Positions 1 to 33,051 of a DNA stretch of 33,058 bases are shown here, in pieces. The stretch comes from Porticoccaceae bacterium (GTDB lineage Bacteria; Pseudomonadota; Gammaproteobacteria; Pseudomonadales; Porticoccaceae), in assembly GCA_018654575.1 (NCBI GenBank), contig JABILI010000082.1, positions 1-33,058 on the forward strand, read 5' to 3'. The position numbers were made by a program, and so were the translations under genes. The notes below the pieces were generated by a model. The model saw only the letters and a list, made by a program, of their open reading frames with translations, was not told the DNA's origin and did not search any database. The stretch's first letter is position 1. Each line of letters begins with the position of its first letter.

Positions 1-450
1 CTGCCTGCTACACAAGAAAGTCGAATCTGTCGTATTTTTTATCGACAGGATTTTATTTCAAGTGCCCTGCATGAAATTGCCCACTGGTGTCTTGCAGGTA
101 ACCAAAGACGCCTATTGGAAGACTTTGGGTACTGGTACCATCCGGACGGCCGGAATGTTAATGAACAGGCCATTTTTGAGGCTGCTGAAACCAAACCTCA
201 GGCTTTAGAGTGGATGTTTGCAGTGGCCTGCGGTCATGGGTTCCGTGTAAGCGCTGACAATTTAGAGGGCCTTGATGACGATGGCCCAAGTTATCTATTC
301 AGGCAAGGTATAGTTAATCAAGCAAAGTCTTGGTGTATCTCTGAGGAATTACCGCCCAGAGCGGCTATATTTTTAGAGAGATTGAACGAGGCTTTCGGCA
401 ACTCTAATGTACGCTGTGATCAGAATTATCAGATGGCAAAAATTGCCTAG
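1..450 (+). CDS. epmC: Elongation factor P hydroxylase EpmC (5'-truncated by window edge)
   Basis: The reading frame is open from base 1, so the gene begins upstream of the window; an internal ATG at 115 is not the true start. EpmC (YfcM) hydroxylates the modified lysine of translation factor EF-P after EpmA and EpmB have acted. The visible part carries the family's HEIAHWC segment (codons 24-30 of the fragment), with its likely metal-binding histidines, then a DFGYWY..PDGR block, a KPQALEW segment and an SADNL segment, in the order known for the family. The stop is 9 nt before the exonuclease gene, so the two are probably cotranscribed. No EF-P, epmA or epmB gene is in the window. Confidence 0.88.
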   Translation: MPATQESRICRIFYRQDFISSALHEIAHWCLAGNQRRLLEDFGYWYHPDGRNVNEQAIFEAAETKPQALEWMFAVACGHGFRVSADNLEGLDDDGPSYLFRQGIVNQAKSWCISEELPPRAAIFLERLNEAFGNSNVRCDQNYQMAKIA

Positions 451-4108: not shown

Positions 4109-4245
4109 GCCCGCCTTGTTGTAGTGAAAGACGACAAGCAGATTTGGCTAGATATGTAACTTTAATGGAACGTATCGAAAAGGGAGCATAATAGGTTAGC
4201 GACTGCTACTCACGTTTGTCCTTGCCAAGACTGGGTTACAGCCTC

Positions 4246-5072: not shown

Positions 5073-5516
5073 CTAGGTTGCCACTAGATCGGGGCCTGGG
5101 GGGTCAGGTTGCCTATCTCTTGCTAGCCATGATGAATGTGTCGGTAAAACAAGACAGAGCAATCCAAGAAAAATATAATCAAGCATCTGATTCACCTCAG
5201 ACCATTCCTGAAGAATGTAATGCCCAAACATAAGGCTCAGCATAAAGCCTAGCCATGCATAGACGGTATAGCCTTTATATTCATTGCTGAGTAGTGCCAA
5301 CCCCAGACTTATCTCAATAAAAGGGATAAGTGAAAGAAATAAATTAACTAAGGATTCAGCTAAGTTAATCCGTAGCTCACCTTGAAACAGCTCGGAGTAG
5401 TAATTATAAAAAGCACCATCGCTGAAGAACTTGCTAGTGCCTGCTGTAAGCAGGATTAGTATCATTGTTATACGAACAATGCGTTCTGCATCTTTTAATT
5501 TTTGAACTGGAATCAT
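5073..5516 (-). CDS. DoxX/MauE-like four-helix membrane protein
   Basis: The 147-aa product has about four hydrophobic helices (roughly residues 13-29, 54-76, 82-100 and 110-126). The small-residue motif TAGTSKFFSDGAF closes the first helix, as in the DoxX and MauE families. These inner-membrane proteins are linked to quinone or thiol redox chemistry, but their reactions are mostly unknown. AGGAG lies 6 nt upstream of the ATG. The C-terminal tail is rich in Pro and Asp and is cytoplasmic or periplasmic. It is not obviously coupled to the flavodoxin-like gene, since about 100 nt separate them, although both are read in the same direction. Confidence 0.6.
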   Translation of the reverse strand: MIPVQKLKDAERIVRITMILILLTAGTSKFFSDGAFYNYYSELFQGELRINLAESLVNLFLSLIPFIEISLGLALLSNEYKGYTVYAWLGFMLSLMFGHYILQEWSEVNQMLDYIFLGLLCLVLPTHSSWLARDRQPDPPGPDLVAT

Positions 5517-13097: not shown

Positions 13098-13759
13098 CTC
13101 CAGAGCGATTTGCCAGGGCCATTGCTGTTCTTAATCATCGCCAACCAGACCTAACCGTGGTCACAGACCAGGTGCACAAAGGGCAAAACCTATCAGCAAT
13201 TATCCGTACCTGCGATGCGGTAGGGATCGAGGCCTTGTATTCAGTGTACGACGCAGCAACCTTCAGGGCGCATACAGGTACGACAATGGGTACCCACAAA
13301 TGGGTTGATACTCACATTTATAAAAATATTGATGAACCTCTAATAGAGCTTAAAAACCAACATTATCAGATCATTGCTGCAGATACGTCAGGTGACACGA
13401 AGGATTATAGAGAGGTTGATTATACCAAGCCTACAGCGGTGTTATTAGGCGCAGAAAAATATGGCATTAGTGATGCAGCATACCCCTATATAGATCAGTG
13501 CGTGACTGTACCCATGCTCGGTATGGTTGAATCATTTAATGTGGGTGTGGCCTGCGCGATTATTCTCTCTGAAGCTAGAGGTCAACGAGAAGCGGCAGGT
13601 TTCTATAAGGAGCGTCAGATGTCTGATGAGGCATACAACAGGACCTTGTTCGAGTGGACGCAGCCACTGGTAGCGAAATACTGCCAAAAGCATGACCTGC
13701 CTTACCCAGCTTTGAACGAAGCCGGCGATATTGTTGACTTAGATTGGCGGAAGAGCTGA
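13094..13759 (+). CDS. trmH: tRNA (guanosine(18)-2'-O)-methyltransferase TrmH
   Basis: This SPOUT methyltransferase puts a 2'-O-methyl group on G18 in the D-loop of tRNAs using SAM. The 221-aa length fits E. coli TrmH (229). The three SPOUT motifs are visible: motif 1 NLSAIIRTCDAVGI, with its catalytic Arg, motif 2 AVLLGAEKYGISD, and motif 3 VPMLGMVESFNVGVACAIIL, which forms the trefoil knot. A short C-terminal extension like that of TrmH follows. The ATG overlaps the stop of avtA, indicating translational coupling, although avtA is not its usual neighbour. It is convergent with pabB. Confidence 0.93.
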   Translation: MTPERFARAIAVLNHRQPDLTVVTDQVHKGQNLSAIIRTCDAVGIEALYSVYDAATFRAHTGTTMGTHKWVDTHIYKNIDEPLIELKNQHYQIIAADTSGDTKDYREVDYTKPTAVLLGAEKYGISDAAYPYIDQCVTVPMLGMVESFNVGVACAIILSEARGQREAAGFYKERQMSDEAYNRTLFEWTQPLVAKYCQKHDLPYPALNEAGDIVDLDWRKS

Positions 13760-13818: not shown

Positions 13819-15228
13819 TTATGCGCCTGTGAAGTCTTCGAGCGTTTTTAATAAAAGTTTGATTTTGTCCATCGATTCTTCGAACTCACTCTCCGCTTCG
13901 GAATCTGCCACAATTCCACCCCCGCCCCAGCAGTGCATAATTGCCTTTGACGCTAGTATGGTCCTGATAGCTATGTTAGTGTCCATCTTATTGTTCGCAC
14001 TGACATAACCTATACTACCGCAATAGACTGAGCGCCGGACCGGTTCTAATTGCTCTATTATTTCCATGGCACGCCGTTTTGGCGCCCCAGTTATTGAGCC
14101 CCCGGGAAAAGAGTCACGCAGCAAGTCAATTGGACTGCTGCTATCAGACAAATCGCCTGTAACGGTACTGACTAAATGGTGCACATTGGCAAAGCTTTCG
14201 ATGGCAAATAGCTGAGGCACTTTAACGCTGCCTGGGATACAGTTCTTGCTAAGATCATTTCGCAATAGATCTACAATCATCAGATTCTCAGCTCGGTTTT
14301 TGGCGCTATTAAGCAGGGCAGTAGCACTTGCTTGATCTTCTAAAGTCGATTTACCTCGTGGGACTGTTCCTTTAATAGGCTTTGTCTCAGCCAGCAATCG
14401 GTCTGATGACGGACTGTTTGATACCTTTAAAAAGCGCTCTGGCGACATGCAAAGTACAGCCTGATCTTGCCACTTCCAATAGGCTGAGAAAGGAGAGGGT
14501 AGCGCCTCTCTCAAAGCAAGATAAGCCTGCCAAGGATCGCCTTTATAAGAAGTAGAAAAATGCTGTGTAAAATTGGTTTGATAGCAGTCTCCACTAGTAA
14601 TGTAATCTTTGATCTTACCAACAGCTTCAGCGTATTTAGATCGAGTCAATGTCGGTATAAACGCTTGGTTAAGCTTGAAAAGAGACTTAGGATCAGCGCT
14701 TGTCTTCGTGCTTGAGGCCGTTAGGCGATTAATGATGTCCGCCCTCAGCTCATCAGAGCAGTTTTGGTGGAAAATAATATGACTTTTCTTAAGATCATGG
14801 TTAACTATTAGTGCCCATAAAAATCGACCAATGCGCATGTCTGGCAACTCGGTAACCGAGGACGCGGTGCTAGGTATATCGATGAGCCTACGCCCCAAAT
14901 CATAACCAAAGTAGCCTAACAACCCCCCGGTAAAAGGCAGGTCTCGGCAATCAGGATCGATGGGCAGGAGAGGTTCTAATAATTCGCTAGCGAGAGAAAA
15001 TGGATCTTCCTGGCTTGTTCGAGAGCTATGCTCGCTGATAATGGTGGAATCTTTGCCGTGTGTCTCTATGATCACATCGGGGGAGCTCGTGATGATATCC
15101 AAGCAACCTTTATCGCTGACGGGTTTACCACTGTCTAGCCAGATCGCTTCAGGCATGTCACGGATAGACTCAAACAGTAGAACGCTACTGTCACCATAGG
15201 GTATTTCATGGCGAAAAATTGATTTCAT
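13819..15228 (-). CDS. pabB: Aminodeoxychorismate synthase component I PabB
   Basis: PabB converts chorismate to 4-amino-4-deoxychorismate with ammonia from PabA, leading to p-aminobenzoate and folate. The 469-aa protein has the chorismate-binding fold: FTGGLLGYFGYDLGRR near residue 100, SGDCYQTNFTQ, CMSPERFLK, PIKGTVPRG, LLRNDLSKN, and PGGSITGAPKRRAMEIIEQLEP toward the C-terminus. Lysine in PIKGT, in place of the Ala of TrpE and PIAGT enzymes, marks PabB-type catalysis and argues against anthranilate synthase. No pabA or pabC is in the window. The start ATG at 15228 precedes a 160-nt divergent gap shared with the GNAT gene. Confidence 0.93.
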   Translation of the reverse strand: MKSIFRHEIPYGDSSVLLFESIRDMPEAIWLDSGKPVSDKGCLDIITSSPDVIIETHGKDSTIISEHSSRTSQEDPFSLASELLEPLLPIDPDCRDLPFTGGLLGYFGYDLGRRLIDIPSTASSVTELPDMRIGRFLWALIVNHDLKKSHIIFHQNCSDELRADIINRLTASSTKTSADPKSLFKLNQAFIPTLTRSKYAEAVGKIKDYITSGDCYQTNFTQHFSTSYKGDPWQAYLALREALPSPFSAYWKWQDQAVLCMSPERFLKVSNSPSSDRLLAETKPIKGTVPRGKSTLEDQASATALLNSAKNRAENLMIVDLLRNDLSKNCIPGSVKVPQLFAIESFANVHHLVSTVTGDLSDSSSPIDLLRDSFPGGSITGAPKRRAMEIIEQLEPVRRSVYCGSIGYVSANNKMDTNIAIRTILASKAIMHCWGGGGIVADSEAESEFEESMDKIKLLLKTLEDFTGA

Positions 15229-23213: not shown

Positions 23214-23567
23214 TTATTTTAGCTCTGTTTCTAGAATCACAACCGCTGTTTCGCCAATATTCCTAACGTTGTGTGTGGTCGCCGGTAAAAAAAGGGTTTG
23301 TCCATCAGTGGCTACTAATGTGGTGCTGGGTTTCCGGTTATCTTCGGGTATCAAAATTAGCGTCCCGCCTTTAATAAAATAGACCACTCGATTGTCATAG
23401 GTATGAGTATGCATGCCAGATTCCGTGCCAACCGGGTAGGTGAGGCGCACAACTTCAACGTCTGCGTTATTAAGTACAACTTCTCTCTGACCTGATGATG
23501 CTGCCAATGAGTAGGGAGCACAAAATAAAAGTGCTGTACATAAACTAATGGTTCGAACCCTATCCAT
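23214..23567 (-). CDS. Small secreted cupin-domain protein
   Basis: The 117-aa product has a signal peptide (residues 1 to about 22, cleavage near SLAAS) and a single cupin fold. GMHTHTYDNRVVYFIKGG gives His53 and His55, and PATTHNVRN gives His99. The glutamate expected in the first cupin motif is replaced by Asp/Asn, so metal binding may rest on three histidines. It is probably periplasmic, with unknown substrate. Its signal peptide and ribosome site are nearly identical in DNA to those of the 232-aa secreted protein (compare 23530-23576 with 24625-24674), so the leader was copied. GGAGGATTT precedes the ATG. Confidence 0.7.
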   Translation of the reverse strand: MDRVRTISLCTALLFCAPYSLAASSGQREVVLNNADVEVVRLTYPVGTESGMHTHTYDNRVVYFIKGGTLILIPEDNRKPSTTLVATDGQTLFLPATTHNVRNIGETAVVILETELK

Positions 23568-23576
23568 AAATCCTCC
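23530..23576 (-). repeat. Leader/signal-peptide repeat, copy 1 (cupin gene)
   Basis: This segment covers the ribosome site, start codon and first codons of the cupin gene. It matches 24625-24674 with only a few substitutions and a 3-nt indel. Both encode a TISLCTAL segment. Confidence 0.85.
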
Positions 23577-23591: not shown

Positions 23592-23957
23592 TCATTCGCT
23601 AACGAAGACCGTTCCATCTTCAAACTCAATCTCGCGTAGGTACATCGTAAACTCTCGGCGTCCTTTCCTTCCGGTCGCCTTAATTTTCGAACCCACCTTC
23701 AAAAGATCTAATGAGACGCCTTGCCTTTCTAAGGTGTTTCTCGACTTGGACTCTATTAACCAGAAAGTTTTATCGCCTTGTTCGTTGGTATTTTTGATAA
23801 GCACGGAGGCATGAGGGTTCTGAAAACGAACTCGCTCGATAATACCCTCGACTGAAATTATTTCTTGCGTGAAATTCGCATTCGTCGAATGATGTGCGCT
23901 CACGCAAAATGGAATACTTAGTAATGTCGCAATCAATAAGATTTTTTTCATCTTCAT
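23592..23957 (-). CDS. Secreted DUF6152-like protein
   Basis: The 121-aa protein has a signal peptide (residues 1 to about 21, FCVSA) and a mature part starting HHSTNANF. The pattern HHS..F at the mature N-terminus, G.IERVRFQNPHASVLI, FWLIESKSRNTLERQGV and a G.I..TGRKGRR segment fits the DUF6152 family of periplasmic small beta proteins, whose function is unknown. MKMKK allows a start at 23957 or 23951. It lies 10 nt from the 232-aa gene upstream and 24 nt from the cupin gene downstream, all minus strand, so the three form an operon of secreted proteins. Confidence 0.65.
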   Translation of the reverse strand: MKMKKILLIATLLSIPFCVSAHHSTNANFTQEIISVEGIIERVRFQNPHASVLIKNTNEQGDKTFWLIESKSRNTLERQGVSLDLLKVGSKIKATGRKGRREFTMYLREIEFEDGTVFVSE

Positions 23958-23966
23958 TCTTCTACT

Positions 23967-24665
23967 CTAATTCGCATTGAGTTCATCGAACCAATTATAG
24001 TTTGCTTCAGTGCAGTCATACACGTTAAGTTCGGTTTCGTCTGCCCGCCTGAAAAAATATTCAAGCACCAGAGGTTTTTCGAAGATCGATTCGTCGATAT
24101 AGGTATGGGTGATATGCAGTGTTTCACCCTCTACCTCTAACACTTCGATAGCAACTGTGCCAGGCACCTGGGGTATCCCGCGCGACGTTCGAATATATCC
24201 ATAGGCATGGTTCCTAGACTCAATAATTAGACGGTTGCCTTCGTAACTAGCAAACGACGAGCCCATTTCTGGAAAGAACGTGCCCTCTAAGTTTTGGGTG
24301 CTGGGTTGGTCCGTTAGTGCCGATTCGTCGCCCAAGGGTATCTCACGCCTGAGATCAAAGAGTTCGTAACTGATTAATATGCTTGTCCCTGTTTGTTCAA
24401 TCTTGATAGGTGCGCCTGGATTCGCCCAGATCCTCGATGAACTGGCCGGCGTGCAGTAAAGGCTGGGGTCATCTGCAAAGAGATCGTAGTCACTCTGCAG
24501 GCGTTGACCCTCTTCTCTCAGTAATATTTCACTCTCTGTGCCAGGTCCATTGAGCATCCATGTGCCACTTATATTCGCCTGCGCTATTGCAGTACCAAAT
24601 ACGCCAAGCGAGATAATGTAAACTAGTGCTGTACACAAACTAATGGTTCGATTAATCCGATTCAT
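23967..24665 (-). CDS. Secreted protein of unknown function, 232 aa
   Basis: I do not recognise a family. A signal peptide (about residues 1-28, cleavage near GTAIAQA) is followed by NISGTWMLNGPG, an opening typical of lipocalin-like or small beta-barrel periplasmic proteins. Two cysteines (in LYCTPASS and VYDCTEANYNW) could form a disulfide. GGAGG lies 4 nt before the ATG, and a 33-codon membrane-peptide gene ends 12 nt upstream. The transcript probably starts at the palindromic promoter at 24859-24886. It leads an operon with the DUF6152-like and cupin genes. Confidence 0.65.
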   Translation of the reverse strand: MNRINRTISLCTALVYIISLGVFGTAIAQANISGTWMLNGPGTESEILLREEGQRLQSDYDLFADDPSLYCTPASSSRIWANPGAPIKIEQTGTSILISYELFDLRREIPLGDESALTDQPSTQNLEGTFFPEMGSSFASYEGNRLIIESRNHAYGYIRTSRGIPQVPGTVAIEVLEVEGETLHITHTYIDESIFEKPLVLEYFFRRADETELNVYDCTEANYNWFDELNAN

Positions 24666-24674
24666 AAATCCTCC
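24625..24674 (-). repeat. Leader/signal-peptide repeat, copy 2 (232-aa gene)
   Basis: This is the partner of 23530-23576, covering the ribosome site, ATG and signal-peptide start of the 232-aa gene. AGTGCTGTAC, AAACTAATGGTTCGA and CATAAATCCTCC are shared exactly. Confidence 0.85.
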
Positions 24675-24779: not shown

Positions 24780-24858
24780 TTTGATCCCTTTATTAAGGAG
24801 TTTAATGGACACCCTAAGGTTACTTTTTACCCTCACTCAATTAAATGTTAATTAACCG

Positions 24859-24886
24859 ATCATAGCTGAATAGCCCATCCAGTTAA
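24859..24886 (-). promoter_or_regulatory. Palindromic promoter, copy P3
   Basis: Read on the minus strand: TTAACT (-35), a 16-nt spacer, then TATGAT (-10). The 17-nt CTGGATGGGCTATTCAG (24866-24882) fills the spacer. It points to the 33-aa peptide gene at 24779 and the secreted trio. Confidence 0.6.
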
Positions 24887-24902
24887 AGCTGGGCTAGATT
24901 GA

Positions 24903-24934
24903 GATTCCACCTATGCAGATTGTTGTGTACTCTA
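24903..24934. repeat. 32-nt direct repeat, copy A
   Basis: It begins GATTCCACCTATGCAGATTG and matches 25176-25207 at 29 of 32 positions. It lies just upstream of promoter P3 and on the left flank of the 47-aa gene. Confidence 0.9.
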
Positions 24935-25026
24935 GGGCTGTGAGTGGTTAATTGCTTATCTGAAGAGTTTTGTCCAAACTTTAAACAAGAAGTTACCTGA
25001 TACACATAGTCAAAGGAGTCATTCTG

Positions 25027-25170
25027 ATGAAAGACCCACTAACTGAAGGATTGGAGGAAGCAGGGGAGATGTTTAAAAAACTTTACACAGACTTTATGAA
25101 AATCTATGAGAGTGAAGATAAGCCTGAAGATAGTTCTGAAAAAGTGGAAGGCAGTAAAGAAGAAAGTTAG
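25027..25170 (+). CDS. Small acidic protein, 47 aa, unknown
   Basis: The frame encodes a 47-aa soluble peptide starting MKDPLTEGLEEAGEMFKKLY, amphipathic at first and then highly charged (many Glu, Ser, Lys). AAAGGAG at 25012-25018, 8 nt before the ATG, is one of the best ribosome sites in the window and argues that it is translated. It is the only plus-strand gene in a minus-strand block and is flanked by the 32-nt direct repeats, so it may have been inserted as a unit. I recognise no family. Confidence 0.55.
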   Translation: MKDPLTEGLEEAGEMFKKLYTDFMKIYESEDKPEDSSEKVEGSKEES

Positions 25171-25175
25171 CATCG

Positions 25176-25207
25176 GATTCCACCCATGCAGATTGTTGTC
25201 GACTCTA
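25176..25207. repeat. 32-nt direct repeat, copy B
   Basis: This is the second copy of the 24903-24934 repeat with three substitutions, beginning 5 nt after the stop of the 47-aa gene. Confidence 0.9.
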
Positions 25208-25227
25208 TAGCAACGAGAACTTAACCT

Positions 25228-26004
25228 TTAATTGTTAGTTCCAAAAAATGTTAGGAGAACATCATCTAACAGAGGCCTCCAATTTGACCAATTATGCCCC
25301 TGGTGCGACTGTTTATACGTAAGATCATAGCCTTTTTCTGTTAAAGCGTTTTTAAAGTCTCTATTATCGCGAGTGCTATCACCTTTGCGCCCATGGCTTA
25401 AAAATATTTTGAGGGGTAGCTTGGGACCTTTTTTGTAAATATCTGTAAGCCGTCTTACTAGATAACTTTTGCCGGGTGATTGCATGGCAAGCCCCGCAAA
25501 ATAGTCCGGTAGAAACAATCCAAAACAGGCTGCATTATAAGCTCCATAGGAAAGCCCCATAATGACTCGTGCTTCTCGATTCGGGCTTGCAGGGTAGGAT
25601 GCCTCTATCGCCGGGAGAAGTTCATAAGCATAAAACTTTGCATAATTCTCATTGCAAATAAATTGACTATCACGTCTATTATCAGAAATTTTATCAGGAT
25701 TTCGTGCATCGACAAAAACTGCAATAACAGGCTCAATTCTGTTGGCCCTAATTTCTTTATCTAAAAGCTCCGGTAACTTTCCAGATTTAATATAGGCCTC
25801 ACCATCCGTTATATAAATCGTAGGCAACAACATATCTGGATTCATTCCTTCGGGCGTGTAAACACGGTATTGGAGGTTGTAGCCTAACATTTCGCTTTTT
25901 ATAATAATGTTATCTGATAACTTTCCGCCCAGCAGTTGATCATTCTCGCTAGAAAAAGAAGATTCCGCGAAAAATATAATAATTACTAGTACTACCTGTC
26001 TCAT
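25228..26004 (-). CDS. Secreted alpha/beta-hydrolase, esterase D / enterochelin esterase-like
   Basis: The 258-aa protein has a hydrophobic signal sequence (residues 1 to about 18) and the PF00756-type esterase fold. The nucleophile elbow GLSYG has Ser152. His237 in HQGHNW is the likely catalytic histidine, with an Asp in the segment around 209-216. PTIYITDGEAY is the usual strand before the active site. Relatives cleave ester bonds of siderophores, S-formylglutathione or sugars; export suggests an extracytoplasmic substrate. The ATG at 26004 has AAAGG 6 nt upstream, better than a TTG at 26010. Palindromic promoter P4 lies about 40 nt upstream in the same direction. Confidence 0.78.
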   Translation of the reverse strand: MRQVVLVIIIFFAESSFSSENDQLLGGKLSDNIIIKSEMLGYNLQYRVYTPEGMNPDMLLPTIYITDGEAYIKSGKLPELLDKEIRANRIEPVIAVFVDARNPDKISDNRRDSQFICNENYAKFYAYELLPAIEASYPASPNREARVIMGLSYGAYNAACFGLFLPDYFAGLAMQSPGKSYLVRRLTDIYKKGPKLPLKIFLSHGRKGDSTRDNRDFKNALTEKGYDLTYKQSHQGHNWSNWRPLLDDVLLTFFGTNN

Positions 26005-26040
26005 CCTCAACCTTTACAAAACTCCTTTATTGATTACTTA

Positions 26041-26068
26041 ACCATAGCTGAATAGCCTATTCAGTCAA
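26041..26068 (-). promoter_or_regulatory. Palindromic promoter, copy P4
   Basis: Read on the minus strand: TTGACT, a 16-nt spacer, TATGGT. Here the palindrome CTGAATAGGCTATTCAG (26048-26064) is perfect except for its centre. It points to the esterase at 26004, with a start site predicted near 26034. Confidence 0.65.
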
Positions 26069-26192
26069 ATCGGGCTAGATCGAGGTGGTTAGGAACAAAT
26101 ACACCTTTGTAGTATATTTATCTTAACCATATTGGACTCTCGATGTATGAGCTAGAGTCAAATTTTTATTGATATCGCCAATGGAGGCGAAG

Positions 26193-27521
26193 GTGTCTGA
26201 AAGAAAGCAAAAAACAGTAGGTATCCACGAGTTGTATCGCAAGAACCCACGAGAGGCTGACAAGCTGTTGTGGGGCAGGGAGGTCGACTCTGGTACACGG
26301 CGGGGATTTCTGAAGAAAAGCGGGCTCGCGGCCATGGTGGCCTTTATAGGGTCGAGCATCCCCTTTGCCAGTAAAATGCCAGGGGGGCTAATTCCGGCTG
26401 CTATGGCTGATGCCTCAGTGGCTTTTGGTATCGATGGTAAGGAGGGCTTGAGAATACTCAATGACCGTCCGATCAATGCCGAGACGCCGCCACATTTACT
26501 CGATGATGATTTGACCCCAGCAAAACATTTTTTTGTGCGGAACAATGGTATTCCTCCGGATCTTGAGTCAATTGGAGACCCCGGGAAGTGGGTGCTAGAG
26601 GTGGCGGGTGAATCCTGCCTTAAACCAAAAAAGTATACCCTCGCTGAACTAAAGCGAAAATTCAAACACTATAGCTATGCATTGACTCTGGAATGCGGAG
26701 GCAATGGCCGTAGCGAGTTTGATCCGCCAGCCAAAGGTAATCAGTGGTCTACCGGTGCTGTCGGATGTGCCCAGTGGACGGGTGTCAGGCTCAAGGATGT
26801 ATTGGAAGATTGTGGTATTAGCGATGACGCGGTTTATATCGGCTATTATGGCGCCGACGCGCATCTCACCGGTAATCCTAGTAAGCAATCCATTTCACGG
26901 GGCGTGCCAATGTCCAAAGCTCTAGAGGATGAAAGTTTGATCGCCTGGGGATTTAACGATGAGGAGATACCCTTTCAAAATGGCTACCCCTTGCGTCTGG
27001 TAACCGGTGGCTGGCCCGCCTCAACCTGCGGTAAGTGGCTAAAAAAAATAGTGATAAGAAATCAGGTTCATAACGGTGCGAAAATGGCGGCTCCGTCATA
27101 CAGTGTGCCTAATAGGCCTGTCGCACCAGGAGCCAAGGTTGCTAATGAAGACATGCACACTATCGAATCTATGCCGGTTAAATCATTAGTTACTTCCCCT
27201 AAAAGTGGCGTTACTCACCCTTTAAAAGAGAGTTTCTCCTGCAGAGGGCACGCCTGGGCCGGTGATCTCAGTGTGGAGAGAGTTAAGGTGTCAATTGACT
27301 TTGGTGCAACCTGGCAGTTGGCTGACCTCAAAAAGCCCATCAATCGGCTGGCATGGCAGCGATGGCGCGCAGAGCTGAGTTTTCCGCAACCCGGCTATTA
27401 TGAGGTTTGGGTGAAAGCAACTGATTCTCAAGGGAGGTCACAACCGACGATAGTCCCCGGTTGGAACCCCAAGGGATACCTTAACAATGCCTGTCACCGT
27501 ATTGCCGTGCAAGTGGTGTAA
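26193..27521 (+). CDS. Sulfite oxidase-like molybdopterin enzyme, Tat-exported (SorA-like)
   Basis: The 442-aa enzyme has a twin-arginine signal with Arg36-Arg37 in TRRGFLKKSG. A molybdopterin domain follows, with HFFVRNNG and ligand Cys168 in TLECGGNGRSEF, plus GGWPASTCGKWLKKI. The C-terminal Mo-co dimerisation domain is from about residue 290. It should oxidise sulfite to sulfate in the periplasm and pass electrons to the cytochrome encoded 2 nt downstream. The GTG at 26193 has GGAGG 5 nt upstream, better than an ATG at 26181 that has no ribosome site. The Tat signal begins unusually far from the start, which is common in this subgroup. A substrate other than sulfite cannot be excluded. Confidence 0.85.
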   Translation: MSERKQKTVGIHELYRKNPREADKLLWGREVDSGTRRGFLKKSGLAAMVAFIGSSIPFASKMPGGLIPAAMADASVAFGIDGKEGLRILNDRPINAETPPHLLDDDLTPAKHFFVRNNGIPPDLESIGDPGKWVLEVAGESCLKPKKYTLAELKRKFKHYSYALTLECGGNGRSEFDPPAKGNQWSTGAVGCAQWTGVRLKDVLEDCGISDDAVYIGYYGADAHLTGNPSKQSISRGVPMSKALEDESLIAWGFNDEEIPFQNGYPLRLVTGGWPASTCGKWLKKIVIRNQVHNGAKMAAPSYSVPNRPVAPGAKVANEDMHTIESMPVKSLVTSPKSGVTHPLKESFSCRGHAWAGDLSVERVKVSIDFGATWQLADLKKPINRLAWQRWRAELSFPQPGYYEVWVKATDSQGRSQPTIVPGWNPKGYLNNACHRIAVQVV

Positions 27522-27523
27522 CG

Positions 27524-27892
27524 ATGCACACAGGCAATAATGATGGGCTTGTGGCCCGCGCTTCAGCAGCAGTGTTATTGGTGTCACTGGTTATTTCGAC
27601 CTCGGCAAGTTCCGCCGAAATTGACCCAGATAGCGGGTTAACTGTGGCCGACGGCTGGGAGACTGTACGAGCGAATTGTACTGCTTGCCATTCTGCAAAA
27701 TTTATCACGTTTCAACGGGGCGACCGAGACACCTGGGAATCGATGATTCGGTGGATGCAAAAAACCCAAGGCTTATGGTTATTTGATAAAAAGACGGAAG
27801 ATACCATTTTGAGTTATCTCGCCGCTAACTATCCCCCCGGGAAATCATCTCGGCGCAGAAATCTATCGCCAGCAGAGCTACCAATAGATTGA
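27524..27892 (+). CDS. Periplasmic c-type cytochrome, partner of the sulfite oxidase (SorB-like)
   Basis: The 122-aa monohaem cytochrome has an N-terminal signal (residues 10-31), a haem site CTACH (Cys52, Cys55, His56) and candidate axial Met74 or Met78 in WESMIRWMQK. Its start is 2 nt after the oxidase stop, so the pair matches the SorAB plan, in which the cytochrome accepts electrons from the Mo centre. A basic tail (KSSRRRNL) ends the protein. A minus-strand terminator lies downstream. Confidence 0.83.
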   Translation: MHTGNNDGLVARASAAVLLVSLVISTSASSAEIDPDSGLTVADGWETVRANCTACHSAKFITFQRGDRDTWESMIRWMQKTQGLWLFDKKTEDTILSYLAANYPPGKSSRRRNLSPAELPID

Positions 27893-27983
27893 GGTGATTG
27901 TTAGTGCCCCAAGAACCCATCGGTCACCCCTATTTAATTGCCAAGTGGCTTAGGTTAGTTGAAGTTATTCTATCCCGGAAATG

Positions 27984-28008
27984 AAAAGCCCCAGCATTTG
28001 CAGGGGCT
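27984..28008 (-). terminator. Minus-strand terminator next to the tRNA-Ser remnant
   Basis: Read on the minus strand, AGCCCC-TGCAAATGCT-GGGGCT forms a strong stem, with an inner GCA/TGC pairing, and is followed by TTTT. It lies just past the 14-nt tRNA-Ser fragment and downstream of the serine hydrolase. It may be the original terminator of tRNA-Ser. Confidence 0.7.
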
Positions 28009-28022
28009 CCAGTGATCTTATG

Positions 28023-28036
28023 TGGCGGTGGGATAG
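28023..28036 (-). repeat. Displaced 3' end of tRNA-Ser (candidate attachment site)
   Basis: TGGCGGTGGGATAG is identical to 32961-32974, the last 14 nt (T-stem edge, acceptor strand, CCA) of tRNA-Ser. A terminator follows in both places. This is the pattern left by site-specific integration at a tRNA 3' end. Confidence 0.6.
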
Positions 28037-28103
28037 AGCCTCATCGCCTTGGTATTAAATATATATGAGATTCTAAATTAGGTTTGATACTAATTACTTT
28101 CTA

Positions 28104-29324
28104 TTAATCTCTCACATCTCTATCTAGAGCTTTTAGAACCCTTGATGACAAGTACTCTTTTGTTGGTCTGGATATATCGAATATATTCCATCCATTAAAT
28201 ACCATGACAAGGTCATGTTCGGGAATAATCAATAAATATTGACCACCATAGCCGCTACCACTATACATCCATTCTCCTTTTCCATCTTCATAAGGTATAA
28301 GCCACCATTGGAACCCATACTTATTACCGCTATATCCAGTATCCACAGCTGGTGTCATAGTCGAAGTGACCCATCCTTTTGGCAGTATCTGGTTCTGTTG
28401 CCATCTGCCATTGTTGAGGTATAAAAGCCCAATCTTTGCAAAGTCTCTTGAAGACAGATACAAGCCACCTTCAGTATCTGTTAAACCTCTTGGTGTTTTT
28501 TTCCAATAGAAATTTTTAATTCCCATAGGTTCAAATAGATATTTTTTAGCGTATTCATCTACCGACATATTTACAGATACCTGAAGAATATGGGACAGTA
28601 AAATAGTTATACCACTGTTATAAACAAATTTCTTTCCTGGCTCGTCTTCCATTGGTGGGGATAAGATGAATCTTAACCAATCATCACTGCTCTCCATACT
28701 TGCAGCGTCATTTAATGGGTCAGTGTAAGCATGAGTAAATTCATCCCACTTGATGCCTGCAGTCATTGTCAGCAAGTCACGAATCGTAATCGACTGCTTG
28801 ATTGGATCACTAAAAAGTGAGCTGTATTCTGGGAAATATCCTACGATTTTTGCATCTAGACCCGTTATTTCGCCTCGATTAATGGCAATTCCATAAAGTG
28901 CTGAAGTGACACTTTTAGTGACCGACTGAATGGTGTGCAGCTCTGTGTCTCTATAGAAAGGATGCCAATCTGTGTCATGATAATTATATTGAGCCGTAGC
29001 AAAGTCACCATAATTTTTTTGCATGATCTTAGCTTGTTCAAACTTACTGGACTTAGTCAGAGTAAAATAGTCAATGTCATAATATTTTTCAAAAATTATA
29101 TCGCCTCCTTTTATGACCAAGAAACTATCTACATATCCGTGTTTTCCGTCTTGAAATTCTTGATTCAGCGTCTCTAATACAGCAACATCTGCGCCCCTCT
29201 CTTCCGGGGACGATAGACTCCAGTCATTATTTTTATTGGCGATATTTTTAACTTCCACAGGATTTCCAATAACATGAAGAGAGAATAGTAGTAATACAAG
29301 AGAAATAATCAACATGTTTTTCAT
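28104..29324 (-). CDS. Exported serine hydrolase, beta-lactamase/penicillin-binding class C family
   Basis: The 406-aa protein has a signal peptide (residues 1 to about 20, HVIGN) and the class C beta-lactamase-like fold. Motif 1 SVTK has Ser134 and Lys137. Motif 2 is YNS at 235-237. Motif 3 is GSGYGGQ near residue 360, replacing the KTG of true beta-lactamases. That suggests an esterase or peptidase rather than an antibiotic-degrading enzyme. TMTAGIKWDEF and YGFQWWLIPYEDG are typical of the group. It ends toward the tRNA-Ser remnant and terminator, and its divergent neighbour is the GST. The codons are more AT-rich than those of the housekeeping genes. Confidence 0.83.
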   Translation of the reverse strand: MKNMLIISLVLLLFSLHVIGNPVEVKNIANKNNDWSLSSPEERGADVAVLETLNQEFQDGKHGYVDSFLVIKGGDIIFEKYYDIDYFTLTKSSKFEQAKIMQKNYGDFATAQYNYHDTDWHPFYRDTELHTIQSVTKSVTSALYGIAINRGEITGLDAKIVGYFPEYSSLFSDPIKQSITIRDLLTMTAGIKWDEFTHAYTDPLNDAASMESSDDWLRFILSPPMEDEPGKKFVYNSGITILLSHILQVSVNMSVDEYAKKYLFEPMGIKNFYWKKTPRGLTDTEGGLYLSSRDFAKIGLLYLNNGRWQQNQILPKGWVTSTMTPAVDTGYSGNKYGFQWWLIPYEDGKGEWMYSGSGYGGQYLLIIPEHDLVMVFNGWNIFDISRPTKEYLSSRVLKALDRDVRD

Positions 29325-29422
29325 AGAATTGGCCTATTTGAATAACACCTTGGAAAAAGTATATTCATGTGCAAGCTCAAAATACTACCATAGTCCAACT
29401 ACACCTGTAGAATACTATGTCT

Positions 29423-29446
29423 AAGTGGTATATAAAGTGGTATATA
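29423..29446. repeat. 12-nt tandem duplication at the GST ribosome site
   Basis: AAGTGGTATATA occurs twice in a row and ends 3 nt before the GST start codon, so it occupies the ribosome-binding region. AAGTGG would be a weak Shine-Dalgarno, present in both units. Confidence 0.9.
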
Positions 29447-29449
29447 TAA

Positions 29450-30082
29450 ATGTTGTATAAGCTATTTTATGCAGATGGCAGTGCCTCCATGGGTATCCAG
29501 GTTTTACTTGAAGAAATAGGTGTTCCCTATGACTTAGTTCAATCGACTATTGATATGAATGAACCTCGTCCTCCCGAGCAACTGGCAATCAATCCAAATG
29601 GTTGGATCCCCGTGCTTATTGGCGACGTGGCTATTTATGAAGCTGCTGCCATAACCATTTACTTGTGCGATCAATATCCCTCAGCAGATTTAGCGCCCAG
29701 ACCTGCTCAGATGACCAGAGGTTTGTTCTTGCAAACCTTAGTCTATTTTTCCAGTTCTGTTCAGAATGCGTTTCAACTTAACTATTATCCTGATCGATTT
29801 ACTGAGACGAGCGATGGTTATTCCGGCGCGATGCAACGAGGTATTCGCCGGTTACGTGAAACATGGCAAGTGATCGATACTCAAATAGGGGCAAATCAAT
29901 GGGTGCTGGGTGACAAGTTCAGTGCGGTTGATATTTACTTATTTATGCTGACCACCTGGTTGAAGGATCCTAGAGGTCACCCATCGGTACAGGAGTTTCC
30001 TAGCGTCGCAAGAATTGCTGAAAAAGTGTTGTTGCGGCCCGCTACACAAAAAGTCTACGGTGAAGCCCTCCAAATTAACTAG
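29450..30082 (+). CDS. Glutathione S-transferase family protein
   Basis: The 210-aa protein has an N-terminal thioredoxin-like domain (residues 1 to about 78) and an alpha-helical C-terminal domain. NPNGWIPVLIGDVAIYEAAAITIYL holds the cis-proline and the Glu-Ala pair that bind the gamma-glutamyl group; Ser11/Ser13 in YADGSASMG is the likely catalytic position. LGDKFSAVDIYLFML is the conserved N-capping motif. Such enzymes join glutathione to electrophiles or isomerise substrates; the target is unknown. The start ATG has no strong ribosome site, only the tandem 12-nt repeat. It is followed after 20 nt by the lipoprotein esterase, probably cotranscribed. Confidence 0.88.
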   Translation: MLYKLFYADGSASMGIQVLLEEIGVPYDLVQSTIDMNEPRPPEQLAINPNGWIPVLIGDVAIYEAAAITIYLCDQYPSADLAPRPAQMTRGLFLQTLVYFSSSVQNAFQLNYYPDRFTETSDGYSGAMQRGIRRLRETWQVIDTQIGANQWVLGDKFSAVDIYLFMLTTWLKDPRGHPSVQEFPSVARIAEKVLLRPATQKVYGEALQIN

Positions 30083-30102
30083 CCCTCACAGAAGAGTAAT
30101 CC

Positions 30103-31143
30103 ATGACTGTTATAAAAAGATGGCTCAGTGTGATTTCAATATTGTGTTTATTATCGTGTGCGGAAACACCGGAATTATTGAAAAACAATAATCCCGATAA
30201 ATACACCGTAGCGAAAGATGTATTGTGGGCATCGCCAGATGAGTTTGATCTGACTATGGACATTTACACGCCAACCTCAGGTAAAGAGGCCTATCCAGTG
30301 CTGCTGATTTTTCATGGTGGTGGCTGGCTTATTAATCACAAGGGGATTATGACTCAGGCGTCAAAGTACCTGGCATCCAACAGTGAATACGTGATTTGCA
30401 ATGTTGACTACCGCCTGCTGGGTGATGAACAAAATACGGTCACGATTGATCAGATCGTAGAGGATGTTTTTGGCTCAGTGCTATGGGTACAGGAGCATAT
30501 TAGTCACTATGATGGTGATGTTAATAATATCGCGGTAACCGGTGACAGTGCCGGCGGACACCTCGCGGCTATGATCGTAAACTCTGGACATCTTCTAGGT
30601 TCCGATGGCTACTCTGAGCAGTCACTCCGATTCACTCCGTCCTATCTGCCCACCGGCATGACGGCAGAGCAGGTTGACGAACAAGGAGGCATATCGGTGC
30701 AAGCGGCCATTTTGAGTTACGGAGCCTATGACATTTACGCCTCGGGACTGGAGGGCATTGAAAGCTGGAAGAATCCTTTTTGGCTAATGGCCGGCTCCTT
30801 GGCCAGAGGTCTTTTCGGCGATAAATTTAATGCCACTGACAACCCGAGCCTGTATAAAGGCGTCTCGCCGTCTTACCTCATTCCCCAGGCCAGCGAACGC
30901 CAACTGCCTGCGCAACTGCTGACTGCTGGGAGCGAAGACAAGCTGATTTCGCCTGCGTCCGTCAAAACCTATATGGCCAAGTTGCAAAATGCCGGGCACG
31001 ACGTTCAATACTGGGAACATGATGGCAGGGGGCATGCGTTTTTGGACTCTGGTTCAAATAGCTTGATGGGGCAGAGTTTTGAAAAGGATGCTCCACTGGC
31101 GCTGGACGTTATGATCAAATTTCTCGATGGTGTGTTTTATTAA
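30103..31143 (+). CDS. Alpha/beta-hydrolase lipoprotein (HSL/carboxylesterase family)
   Basis: The 346-aa protein has a lipoprotein signal with lipobox LLSC (residues 16-19), so it should be membrane-anchored outside the cytoplasm. The hydrolase fold shows the oxyanion HGGGW (71-75), nucleophile Ser149 in GDSAGG, an acidic residue in TAGSEDKLISP and a histidine in GRGHAFL, the order of hormone-sensitive lipase-type esterases. The substrate is unknown. Together with the GST it could process and conjugate an ester-containing compound, but that is only a suggestion. Confidence 0.85.
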   Translation: MTVIKRWLSVISILCLLSCAETPELLKNNNPDKYTVAKDVLWASPDEFDLTMDIYTPTSGKEAYPVLLIFHGGGWLINHKGIMTQASKYLASNSEYVICNVDYRLLGDEQNTVTIDQIVEDVFGSVLWVQEHISHYDGDVNNIAVTGDSAGGHLAAMIVNSGHLLGSDGYSEQSLRFTPSYLPTGMTAEQVDEQGGISVQAAILSYGAYDIYASGLEGIESWKNPFWLMAGSLARGLFGDKFNATDNPSLYKGVSPSYLIPQASERQLPAQLLTAGSEDKLISPASVKTYMAKLQNAGHDVQYWEHDGRGHAFLDSGSNSLMGQSFEKDAPLALDVMIKFLDGVFY

Positions 31144-31214
31144 AACTCGTCCAAAAAGCTCGTGCCTAATCTGTGGAAGTATTCGTGCATTGTAGTGTAC
31201 AAAAACCCTTTTTA

Positions 31215-31280
31215 TAAGCCTCAAGAACTTTTCTACCACCTAATTTGACTGGGTGGGTTGTTCAGCTATGATTAAGTAAT
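31215..31280 (+). repeat. Promoter-region direct repeat, copy 1
   Basis: It matches 31793-31864: TAAGCCTCAAGAACTT, then a T/C-rich stretch, ACCACCT and AATTTGACTGG, then the palindrome and TATG. A 5-nt indel and scattered substitutions separate the copies. It includes promoter P1. Confidence 0.85.
31245..31272 (+). promoter_or_regulatory. Palindromic promoter, copy P1
   Basis: TTGACT (31245-31250), a 16-nt spacer, TATGAT (31267-31272). The spacer palindrome CTGGGTGGGTTGTTCAG (31249-31265) is the most degenerate copy. It points to a small frame at 31305 with a strong ribosome site, 33 nt downstream. Confidence 0.55.
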
Positions 31281-31304
31281 AAAATAAAAATCAAGGAGAT
31301 TCAA

Positions 31305-31433
31305 ATGGCGGGAGCGGGGTTGATGGCGGCGATACTATGGAAACCTCTGGGAGTGAGAAGAGGGAGTGCACCCACGGCTAAGTCCGCATGTATAGGTACT
31401 TGCTTATACGACCCCTTGTTGTTCGCATCGTGA
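31305..31433 (+). CDS. Possible 42-codon gene downstream of promoter P1
   Basis: An ATG with AAGGAG 6 nt upstream (31293-31298) opens a 42-aa frame starting MAGAGLMAAILWKPLG and ending at 31433. The promoter and ribosome site are good but the peptide resembles nothing I know, and the GC-rich start differs from its surroundings. It may instead be the broken 5' end of a longer gene, or a structured RNA may occupy this interval. Confidence 0.3.
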   Translation: MAGAGLMAAILWKPLGVRRGSAPTAKSACIGTCLYDPLLFAS

Positions 31434-31594
31434 GCAGGGTACAAGGCATTACTGTCAGACGTAAGGCGTTCCCTGGTGAATTCCAAGCGGACTGGACTTC
31501 CACTCATGAGGAGCGTGGAGCAGGACAATGGAAACCTGATACACACCGTACACGAGAATCCACTTGCAGGAAATTTAATATTGCACTGAACTAT

Positions 31595-31732
31595 AAAGAG
31601 ATGGGGCAATACCAAGATGATCTATTGGACACCCTGACATTACAATTAAAAGAGAGACTAGGCATCGACCTAAGTCAGTATACCATCTTGGGGCTATACG
31701 ATAGTCCTGATGATCATGCAGCGGTGTTCTGA
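31595..31732 (+). pseudogene. Fragment resembling a DUF302 C-terminus
   Basis: The last 46 codons of a 114-codon frame (open from 31388) look coding, while the first part is arginine-rich and unlike a natural protein. Residues LKERLGIDLSQYTILGLYDS recall the pattern LKxKLGVDxxxYRILGxCNP of DUF302 domains. There is no proper start or ribosome site near 31595. It is probably a decayed gene piece between the two promoter repeats. Confidence 0.25.
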
Positions 31733-31792
31733 TGACTACCCAGAATTAAGGATTGAATCGATTGCGGAGATAACTGGAACAAGCGTAAGGAC

Positions 31793-31864
31793 TAAGCCTC
31801 AAGAACTTCTTTACCACCTCACCATAATTTGACTGGATGAGCTATTCAGCTATGCTTAATAAAT
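31793..31864 (+). repeat. Promoter-region direct repeat, copy 2
   Basis: This is the second copy of 31215-31280, with the added CACCA before AATTTGACTGG. It includes promoter P2. Confidence 0.85.
31829..31856 (+). promoter_or_regulatory. Palindromic promoter, copy P2
   Basis: TTGACT (31829-31834), a 16-nt spacer, TATGCT (31851-31856). The palindrome is CTGGATGAGCTATTCAG (31833-31849). It points to the secreted 231-aa protein at 31956 with a leader of about 90 nt. Confidence 0.6.
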
Positions 31865-31955
31865 CGAAGTAATGTTTTTCACATAATCATGAAATCTAAC
31901 TTTCGATTACTTGCAATCAAATACAACACTAATCTTTTCAGCTGGGGAAACAAAA

Positions 31956-32651
31956 ATGAACCACTTAAAATTTACATTCACTATTCTGATCTCACTGGTA
32001 TTTTCAAGTCTAGCTATGGCCGCTCCAGAAGGCGCTATCACCACACTAACAGTTCAAGCTGACGACATTAACAAATATGTTCAATACATGAAAAAAAACC
32101 CTGAAACTTTTAAAGCCATTGGCTCAGATGTAGCAGGAGTTTGCGTAACTCGAGCCGGCAATAATTACCCAGGAGAAATGTTCGTTTGGAATGTATTCCC
32201 AAGTCTTGAAAAAGCTTTAGGGATGATTGAAGCCTACGATCCAGCTAATCCAGCGCCTGCCTTTGATCGGTTAAGGTCTGTCAAATATGCAGCCGTGTTC
32301 AAGCCATTGAAAGAGTTTGATCTCGAACCAGGTTTTGAACGCCTTTGGAGAATTAAACTAAATGATGAAATGGCATTTACAAACAAAATGACTGAGCTAG
32401 AAGCTGCTATTCGAGCTGCCGGCAACAAGGTGAACTTAGCCGTATTCGCTCCTGTTGGTGGCGGCATTCACGAAACTGGAATGCATCACTTCAGAGCGAT
32501 TTTTAAATCGGGTTCAGAAGCAGGCAAGGTGCTAGATCAGTTCTATGCTGGCGCCTCCTTCTCGTCTATTTGGATTGAAGCGCAGCAATATGTCGATGAG
32601 ATAGTCTCGGAAACAATTGAGGTATGCGAGGTCATATACACAGCGAAATAA
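31956..32651 (+). CDS. Secreted protein of unknown function, 231 aa
   Basis: A clear signal peptide (residues 1 to about 23, cleavage after SLAMA) precedes a mature protein with two similar halves. Each appears to have a beta strand, a helix and an aromatic-rich strand (for example EMFVWNVFPSLEKAL in the first half and GMHHFRAIFKSGSEAG in the second). This resembles a doubled ferredoxin-like or NIPSNAP/ABM-type barrel, by eye only. Two cysteines are widely spaced (near residue 68, and in VCEV near the end). The ATG at 31956 has GGGGAAA upstream; an earlier in-frame start would precede the signal peptide. It is the target of promoter P2. Confidence 0.65.
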   Translation: MNHLKFTFTILISLVFSSLAMAAPEGAITTLTVQADDINKYVQYMKKNPETFKAIGSDVAGVCVTRAGNNYPGEMFVWNVFPSLEKALGMIEAYDPANPAPAFDRLRSVKYAAVFKPLKEFDLEPGFERLWRIKLNDEMAFTNKMTELEAAIRAAGNKVNLAVFAPVGGGIHETGMHHFRAIFKSGSEAGKVLDQFYAGASFSSIWIEAQQYVDEIVSETIEVCEVIYTAK

Positions 32652-32920
32652 ACAACACATTAAATCTAGAAAACACGCTAGCTGACAAGGCTAATGGAGT
32701 CGACAGTAGGCGCTGAGGTGCTGATAGCCCCTCGGCGACATTGCCGTTTTCATTAGATAGCAGCGGCATAGACTGCTGCTTTACAGGCAGGGGTAATAGG
32801 GCAATATCTGCCTAAGGCTCGGCGTATCTGAGAATTGGGGTTTTATTGCTAGGAATTACGAATTATCTATCTATCAACACCTTTATAGTGGGTAGGTTAA
32901 TGGGTAAATATTCTTCATAT
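32652..32920. other. Non-coding stretch with several hairpins before tRNA-Ser
   Basis: No gene is supported. Adjacent inverted repeats include CGGC/GCCG (32733-32746, then TTTT), a weak terminator for the preceding gene, AGCAGC/GCTGCT (32759-32780) and AGGCAG/CTGCCT (32785-32813). This may be a structured RNA or the right end of the island. Confidence 0.35.
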
Positions 32921-32960: not shown

Positions 32961-33051
32961 TGGCGGTGGGATAGGGATTCGAACCCTAGTTAGGCTATTA
33001 ACCTAAGCCAGTTTTCAAGACTGGTGCATTCAACCGCTCTGCCATCCCACC
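32961..33051 (-). tRNA. tRNA-Ser (anticodon UGA)
   Basis: The 91-nt gene includes CCA. The acceptor stem is GGTGGGA/TCCCACC, the anticodon stem CCAGT/ACTGG (anticodon at 33015-33017), the long variable arm has TTAGG/CCTAA and the T-arm has GTTCGAA. The long variable arm confirms class II. Its 3' 14 nt recur at 28023-28036. Confidence 0.97.

Follow-up and report, generated by a model that had tools for sequence, protein, structure and literature searches.

Integron cassettes are described as dependent on a promoter at the head of their array, and in the pdif/dif modules of Acinetobacter short repeats flank small gene modules. The accessible parts of two papers describe integron cassettes as generally promoterless (PMC4670013, PMC11014356), and the accessible part of the second describes promoter activity in some gene-less cassettes of Vibrio superintegrons (PMC11014356). 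The window analysed here is the complete 33,058-nt contig JABILI010000082.1 of a Porticoccaceae bacterium (GCA_018654575.1, a 2.42-Mb assembly of 103 contigs) and carries four copies of an element in which two promoter-like hexamers enclose a 16-nt spacer. These four sequences are probably boundary elements of mobile gene cassettes, exchanged most likely by homologous recombination, with the right part of each serving as an expression head.

An original prediction, made from the window alone, took the four copies for promoters of a regulon of exported proteins, with a palindrome in the spacer. Exact matches to TTRACT-N16-TATGNT do number four in the window, compared with a mean of 0.05 and a maximum of one in 100 dinucleotide shuffles; all four lie at the predicted places and on the predicted strands, and all have CTG-N11-CAG inside the spacer. 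Copy 1 (24846..24905, minus strand; predicted core 24859-24886; model E value 4.1e-13) consists of a left half and TTAACT-N16-TATGAT, and copy 2 (26026..26086, minus strand; predicted core 26041-26068; E value 1.6e-16) precedes an esterase gene. Copies 3 (31239..31286, plus strand; predicted core 31245-31272; E value 3.0e-11) and 4 (31816..31868, plus strand; predicted core 31829-31856; E value 1.5e-12) are without the canonical left half. Genome-wide, the loose pattern TTRACT-N16-TATG is not special (23 matches, compared with 15 for a reversed-pattern control), whereas the full family stands out: a 27-mer consensus with up to three mismatches has nine matches in the genome and none in the reversed control. 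A 64-column model finds 14 matches in the same genome, partial copies included.

The conserved block in this genome and its relatives is larger than was originally described: counted from the first base of the -35 hexamer, it extends from approximately -20 to +30. It corresponds to an element of approximately 50-60 bp, CACCTCGATCTAGCCCTGAT-TTGACT-N16-TATGmT-TTArG, with the spacer consensus GGATGGGsTATTCAGC; TAATCAATAAAGGGAG often comes next, and the block often runs on into a Shine-Dalgarno sequence. Among 78 distinct 52-mers from 81 copies, the -35 columns are the best conserved (1.66-2.0 bits).

Comparison of 30 regions containing these 81 copies shows that homologous blocks repeatedly start and stop at elements and that their neighbours differ. 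A unit with a 165-residue (MRNN..) gene lies behind an element in four assemblies, and the gene is inverted in a fifth (G030). On contig G003:C16 small cassettes form a uniformly oriented tandem array, in which 11 copies occupy one strand from 21.5 to 28.8 kb at intervals of 494-1220 nt. Of the four window copies, two face left and two right. Compared with record SRR3933286, G003_C16 has approximately 2.6 kb of extra sequence, which consists of three element-bounded units. Some units are more alike than the backbones around them: window positions 31817-32674, the unit headed by copy 4, are 96.9% identical to a contig of G015, against 84.8% over 2660 nt of backbone, G000_C51 and G004 share 95.6% over 316 nt against 70.5% over 5338 nt, and units of G015 and G027 reach 97.2% against 85.9%. 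The copies are regarded as boundaries of mobile gene cassettes because the same genes recur between them beside different neighbours, some more alike than the chromosome. What the original prediction missed is that the copies bound cassettes that switch neighbours and are common to several species. We read the identities as suggesting that single units were exchanged horizontally on different occasions, the alternative being stronger conservation of some units. Nearly all of the genomes are drafts, in which arrays break at contig ends.

The position of the start signal bears on the right part of the element. A start codon with a Shine-Dalgarno sequence that opens at least 40 codons 15-60 nt after TATG is found downstream of 33 of the 74 distinct copies with enough sequence, compared with 7.3% of random same-strand positions and one of 74 in the opposite direction. 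All 33 belong to the 66 copies with a TAT/TGT box and none to the eight without, and the offsets to the start are mostly 26-41 nt. The hexamers resemble -35 and -10 boxes and fall within the 15-19 nt spacing of sigma-70-type promoters. The copies thus appear to behave as promoter heads, as originally proposed, and we infer from their sequence that the element has promoter activity. Frequent placement at 3' ends had been named as a finding that would speak against promoters; each copy does also form the 3' end of the preceding unit, which bears on this point.

In the reading preferred here, a unit would extend from an element as far as the following one and would usually contain a single small gene. 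The right part would act as an expression head, with TTGACT-N16-TATGmT as a sigma-70-like promoter, then a short leader, to which approximately half of the copies add a Shine-Dalgarno sequence, so that a unit could be expressed wherever it lands. The left part (CACCTCGATCTAGCCC) would supply the gene before it with a 3' end that units have in common. Because units have these 50-60 bp in common, recombination between elements, most likely of the ordinary homologous kind, could delete units, insert them and swap them among loci and species. Phage-type integrases are frequent neighbours of the arrays, and the islands of these integrases may ferry the arrays between cells.

Several observations weigh against this reading. 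The Shine-Dalgarno test fails for 41 of the 74 copies, 12 of the 81 copies have no same-strand open reading frame of 40 residues within 200 nt, and the first four -10 columns, at approximately 1.4 bits, are not above several spacer columns (0.5-1.6 bits) and upstream columns. Unit identity is not always above that of the backbone (95.0-97.2% for units of G003 and G027, with a backbone at 90.7-95.2%), and many shared stretches are only 66-87% identical. For interspecies recombination a length of 50-60 bp is short, and neither a transcript nor an excision product was seen. The 3' ends of two types of integrase adjoin elements in ten of 16 cases, more than pure homology needs. Finally, pooled junction pairs (23 same-right and ten same-left) place the switch between left and right linkage at +7/+8; positions 6-16 are intermediate in linkage and also form the best 11-nt window, which falls on the centre of the palindrome, as it would for site-specific crossover.

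The last two observations favour an alternative that is possible but on balance unlikely, in which the spacer palindrome CTGGA-TGGGCTA-TTCAG would be the core site of a tyrosine recombinase, probably an array-head integrase, and crossover between the -35 and -10 hexamers would rebuild a promoter at each insertion. Matches to PF00589 do stand at array heads. The type A integrase has Arm-DNA-bind_3, Phage_int_M and Phage_integrase domains, with the catalytic residues R, K, H, R, H and Y recognized by eye; at seven of nine of its C-terminal ends (at least 53% identity) a same-strand element lies 11-369 nt downstream. These are in G000_C50 and G022_C16 (both with partial elements), HTCC2207, G016_C76, MOLA455, G007_C8 and G027_C31, with G016_C76 and HTCC2207 representing the same junction in two genomes; no element follows in G033_C23 and G021_C24. 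Type B is followed by an element within 14-50 nt at three of seven ends (G000_C28, G007_C74 and HTCC2207) and by none in G007_C13, G008_C31, G029_C49 and G022_C68; of these, G029_C49 and G022_C68 are contigs that stop within the next 220 nt. Types B and A stand back to back in HTCC2207, with an element after each, and in G027_C31 and G007_C8 the integrase stop codon lies within the left half or a variant of it. In the assembly of the window, integrases abut elements on contigs C28 and C50, and none does so on the window contig itself. The per-family junction test, however, argues against a fixed crossover: with one pair per family (11 + 5), the 16 families have best switch positions scattered from -20 to +43, and a model with a variable crossover outscores the one fixed to window 6-16 by 28 log units. 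Pairs below 90% identity or with short flanks were dropped from these junction sets; a preceding set built with different cut-offs held 18 + 9 pairs and the first one 47 + 37. A fixed site-specific crossover was considered on the strength of its good pooled likelihood, was set aside on the per-family result and is kept as the main rival. Homologous recombination is preferred because the switch points vary between families.

The behaviour of the integrases also counts against such a recombinase. Type A seems, from the repeats around it, to use tRNA-Ser 3' ends as its attachment (att) sites: repeats of such 3' ends are found on its 5' side in HTCC2207, G007_C8 and MOLA455, the repeat in MOLA455 measuring 22 bp and occurring on both sides, whereas of these repeats only the tRNA-Ser copy was found in the window. 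A P4-like integrase of type A stands at an array in seven cases, one of them on contig C50 of the assembly that contains the window and the others in relatives. Integrase presence does not track the element, type A or B (at least 50% identity, fragments counted) being found in eight of 16 element-bearing and six of 19 other genomes, and co-occurrence, considered as an argument for a link, is not convincing. G015 and G020 have arrays yet no PF00589 match, at 89-90% completeness. The integrase family is common in viral contigs and phages, with at most 45% identity among the matches listed. A more far-reaching proposal, rather unlikely in our judgement, is an integron-independent system with its recombination core in the 16-nt promoter spacer, the -35 hexamer contributed by the cassette end and the -10 hexamer by the next head, so that each capture or reshuffling, carried out by a phage-type tyrosine recombinase at the head of the array, would build a functional promoter at the new junction.

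The fixed regulon originally proposed, in which one repressor or activator would bind the spacer palindrome before genes for exported proteins, now appears quite improbable. Consistent with it are the promoter-head geometry and an enrichment of hydrophobic N-termini, which are predicted for 18 of 25 distinct element-headed genes and three of 17 large backbone genes of the window by a simple hydropathy count that is crude and uses a small chosen background. The palindrome itself is not distinguished. Over 54 distinct cores its pairing fraction is 0.892, a value that 187 of 1000 shuffles reach, compared with 0.885 in shuffled columns; the arms show two both-side changes and, among single changes, 43 that keep and 41 that break pairing, and they are no more conserved than the middle. 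The operator and RNA-leader interpretations gain no support because the palindrome shows no covariation, and the remark that all arm differences are transitions is correct for the four window copies and fails beyond them. The conserved left half, moreover, sits upstream of -35, gene order is not kept between species, and the genes are mixed. Pfam families among 14 typed cassette proteins and the window genes include DUF1330, DUF4234, cupin, lumazine-binding-like, SnoaL-like, MauE/DoxX, histidine phosphatase, glutathione S-transferase (GST), metallo-beta-lactamase fold, glyoxalase and TonB C-terminal. Promoter heads and a leaning towards exported products are thus what survives of the original interpretation, without the role given to the palindrome.

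A degenerate integron, in which the elements would be attC sites of an array that lost its IntI integrase, is very improbable in spite of the integron-like layout and the small cassette genes. Among the 16 genus genomes that carry the element, none has a TIGR02249 match above the cut-off, in a search for IntI that did not extend to HTCC2207 and MOLA455; the sole IntI among the 35 genus genomes (G011:C3:150064-151011) is in a genome without the element, and the 3.9 kb surrounding this IntI contain no significant match to the element profile. Upstream 3' ends pair with the core no better than shuffled ones. Hairpins recognized by eye in three families of 3' ends were considered as attC candidates and rejected on folding the 80 copies with sufficient flanking sequence (mean z-score +0.12, three copies below -2.5), and inspection of the consensus by eye showed no GTTRRRY or RYYYAAC core. 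The G011 IntI (locus L089) is itself accompanied, by eye, by GNAT-type-looking cassettes and ordinary attC sites. Least probable of all are Xer-dependent (pdif-type) modules, which share the small modules between short repeats: none of the 35 genus genomes has a full-length strong XerD-type match (E < 1e-70), compared with 16 of 21 genomes of other genera, five of these 21 also being without one. A divergent Xer is conceivable because many genus genomes have weak XerD-type matches (E values of approximately 1e-6 to 1e-8) in frames of 425-453 residues, and the sequences suggest that the lineage of the genus may have lost, replaced or strongly changed XerCD.

With a sequence-only model, 101 matches to the element at E <= 0.001 fall in 16 of the 35 genus genomes, and 21 genomes from other genera within the order have none; the filters of the model may lose weak matches. 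When 84,980 species, each represented by a single genome, were scanned for the pattern, 18 stretches came up, the records of which are named SAR92, Porticoccaceae, HTCC2207, MOLA455 or uncultured Gammaproteobacteria. The element was not found in IMG/VR, searched with the exact pattern, nor in phage or plasmid records. As far as searched, the cassette boundary elements are confined to the SAR92 clade.

Around the window copies, the claim that all four point to a nearby gene is borne out for copies 1, 2 and 4, which lead to plausible genes. Copy 1, which has a type (a) cassette 3' end common to other cassettes directly upstream (24903..24951, minus strand), is followed by a gene for a predicted secreted protein of 232 residues without a Pfam family (23967..24665, minus strand; start approximately 195 nt past the core) and, in the same direction, by one for a DUF6152 protein (23592..23957, minus strand). 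Copy 2 precedes the gene of a putative esterase with a hydrophobic N-terminus (PF00756; 25228..26010, minus strand), beyond which lies a second type (a) 3' end (25176..25224, minus strand) with no element after it. Copy 4, downstream of a type (c)-like 3' end (31793..31819, plus strand), precedes the gene of a predicted secreted protein of 231 residues (31956..32651, plus strand). The claim does not hold for copy 3, which follows a type (c) 3' end (31209..31241, plus strand) and leads only to a 42-residue frame with a Shine-Dalgarno sequence that is doubtful as a gene (31305..31433, plus strand); this copy may be decayed. A tRNA-Ser(TGA) gene (32961..33051, minus strand), the 3' end of which matches att-like repeats beside integrases of relatives, ends both array and contig. 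Homologues of a MauE/DoxX-like gene of the window (5073..5516, minus strand) occupy cassettes in G003 and G027; the window gene itself has no significant element beside it.

Further details of the arrays are recorded here as observations. Direct repeats of 27 and 21 nt (window 23530-23576 and 24625-24674), spaced by approximately 1.1 kb, sit near the starts of a cupin gene and of the gene for the 232-residue protein. Some cassette genes end in frame with their stop codon within the left half (..ACCTCGATCTAG), for example at G003_C16 22733 and in the G027_C31 integrase, which gives the impression that the boundary was fused to open frames. The left half is also fused to the 3' end of an opposite-strand gene for a large secreted repeat protein ending in LETLMPAL in three genomes (G000_C50 14417-14458, G016_C76 430-471 and G020_C25 13243-13283); past the left half the three sequences differ, and the arrangement looks like the end of an array. 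The tRNA-Ser(TGA) 3'-end-like repeat TATGGCGGTGGGATAG occurs at positions 4149, 9232 and 11160 of L188, around the two integrases of HTCC2207, and at position 14 of L158, before the type A integrase of G007_C8. A gene for a collagen-like repeat protein of 1157 residues with strong internal tandem repeats lies directly behind an element in HTCC2207 (L188 4550-8023).

If confirmed, these arrays would represent another route to cassette-style gene sharing, and the cultured strains HTCC2207 and H231 carry the system, which makes its expression and exchange testable. Among the matches listed for the open PubMed Central (PMC) literature, with subscription journals and preprints outside the scope, no title or opening of an abstract describes such a system. 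P4-like genomic islands at tRNA-Ser resemble the arrays in the Arm-DNA-bind_3 integrases at several array heads and in the tRNA-Ser 3'-end repeats nearby, but the element is not the tRNA att site, and numerous copies of it occur both within the island and outside. The Acinetobacter pdif/dif modules likewise have short repeats around small gene modules, whereas the genus studied here has no strong XerD-type match and the element, by eye, no bipartite 28-bp site. Sedentary chromosomal integrons and clusters of attC sites lacking integron integrases (CALINs) share with the present arrays the tandem small single-gene cassettes, the common boundary sequence and the exchange between genomes; here, no IntI and no attC folding signal were found, and the boundary looks like a promoter. 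The junctions of this marine lineage resemble promoters with start signals, without IntI or recognizable attC. The gene-less promoter cassettes of Vibrio superintegrons, as far as the accessible part of their description goes, also place promoters within a cassette array, whereas here it is the boundary repeat itself that carries the promoter-like sequence.

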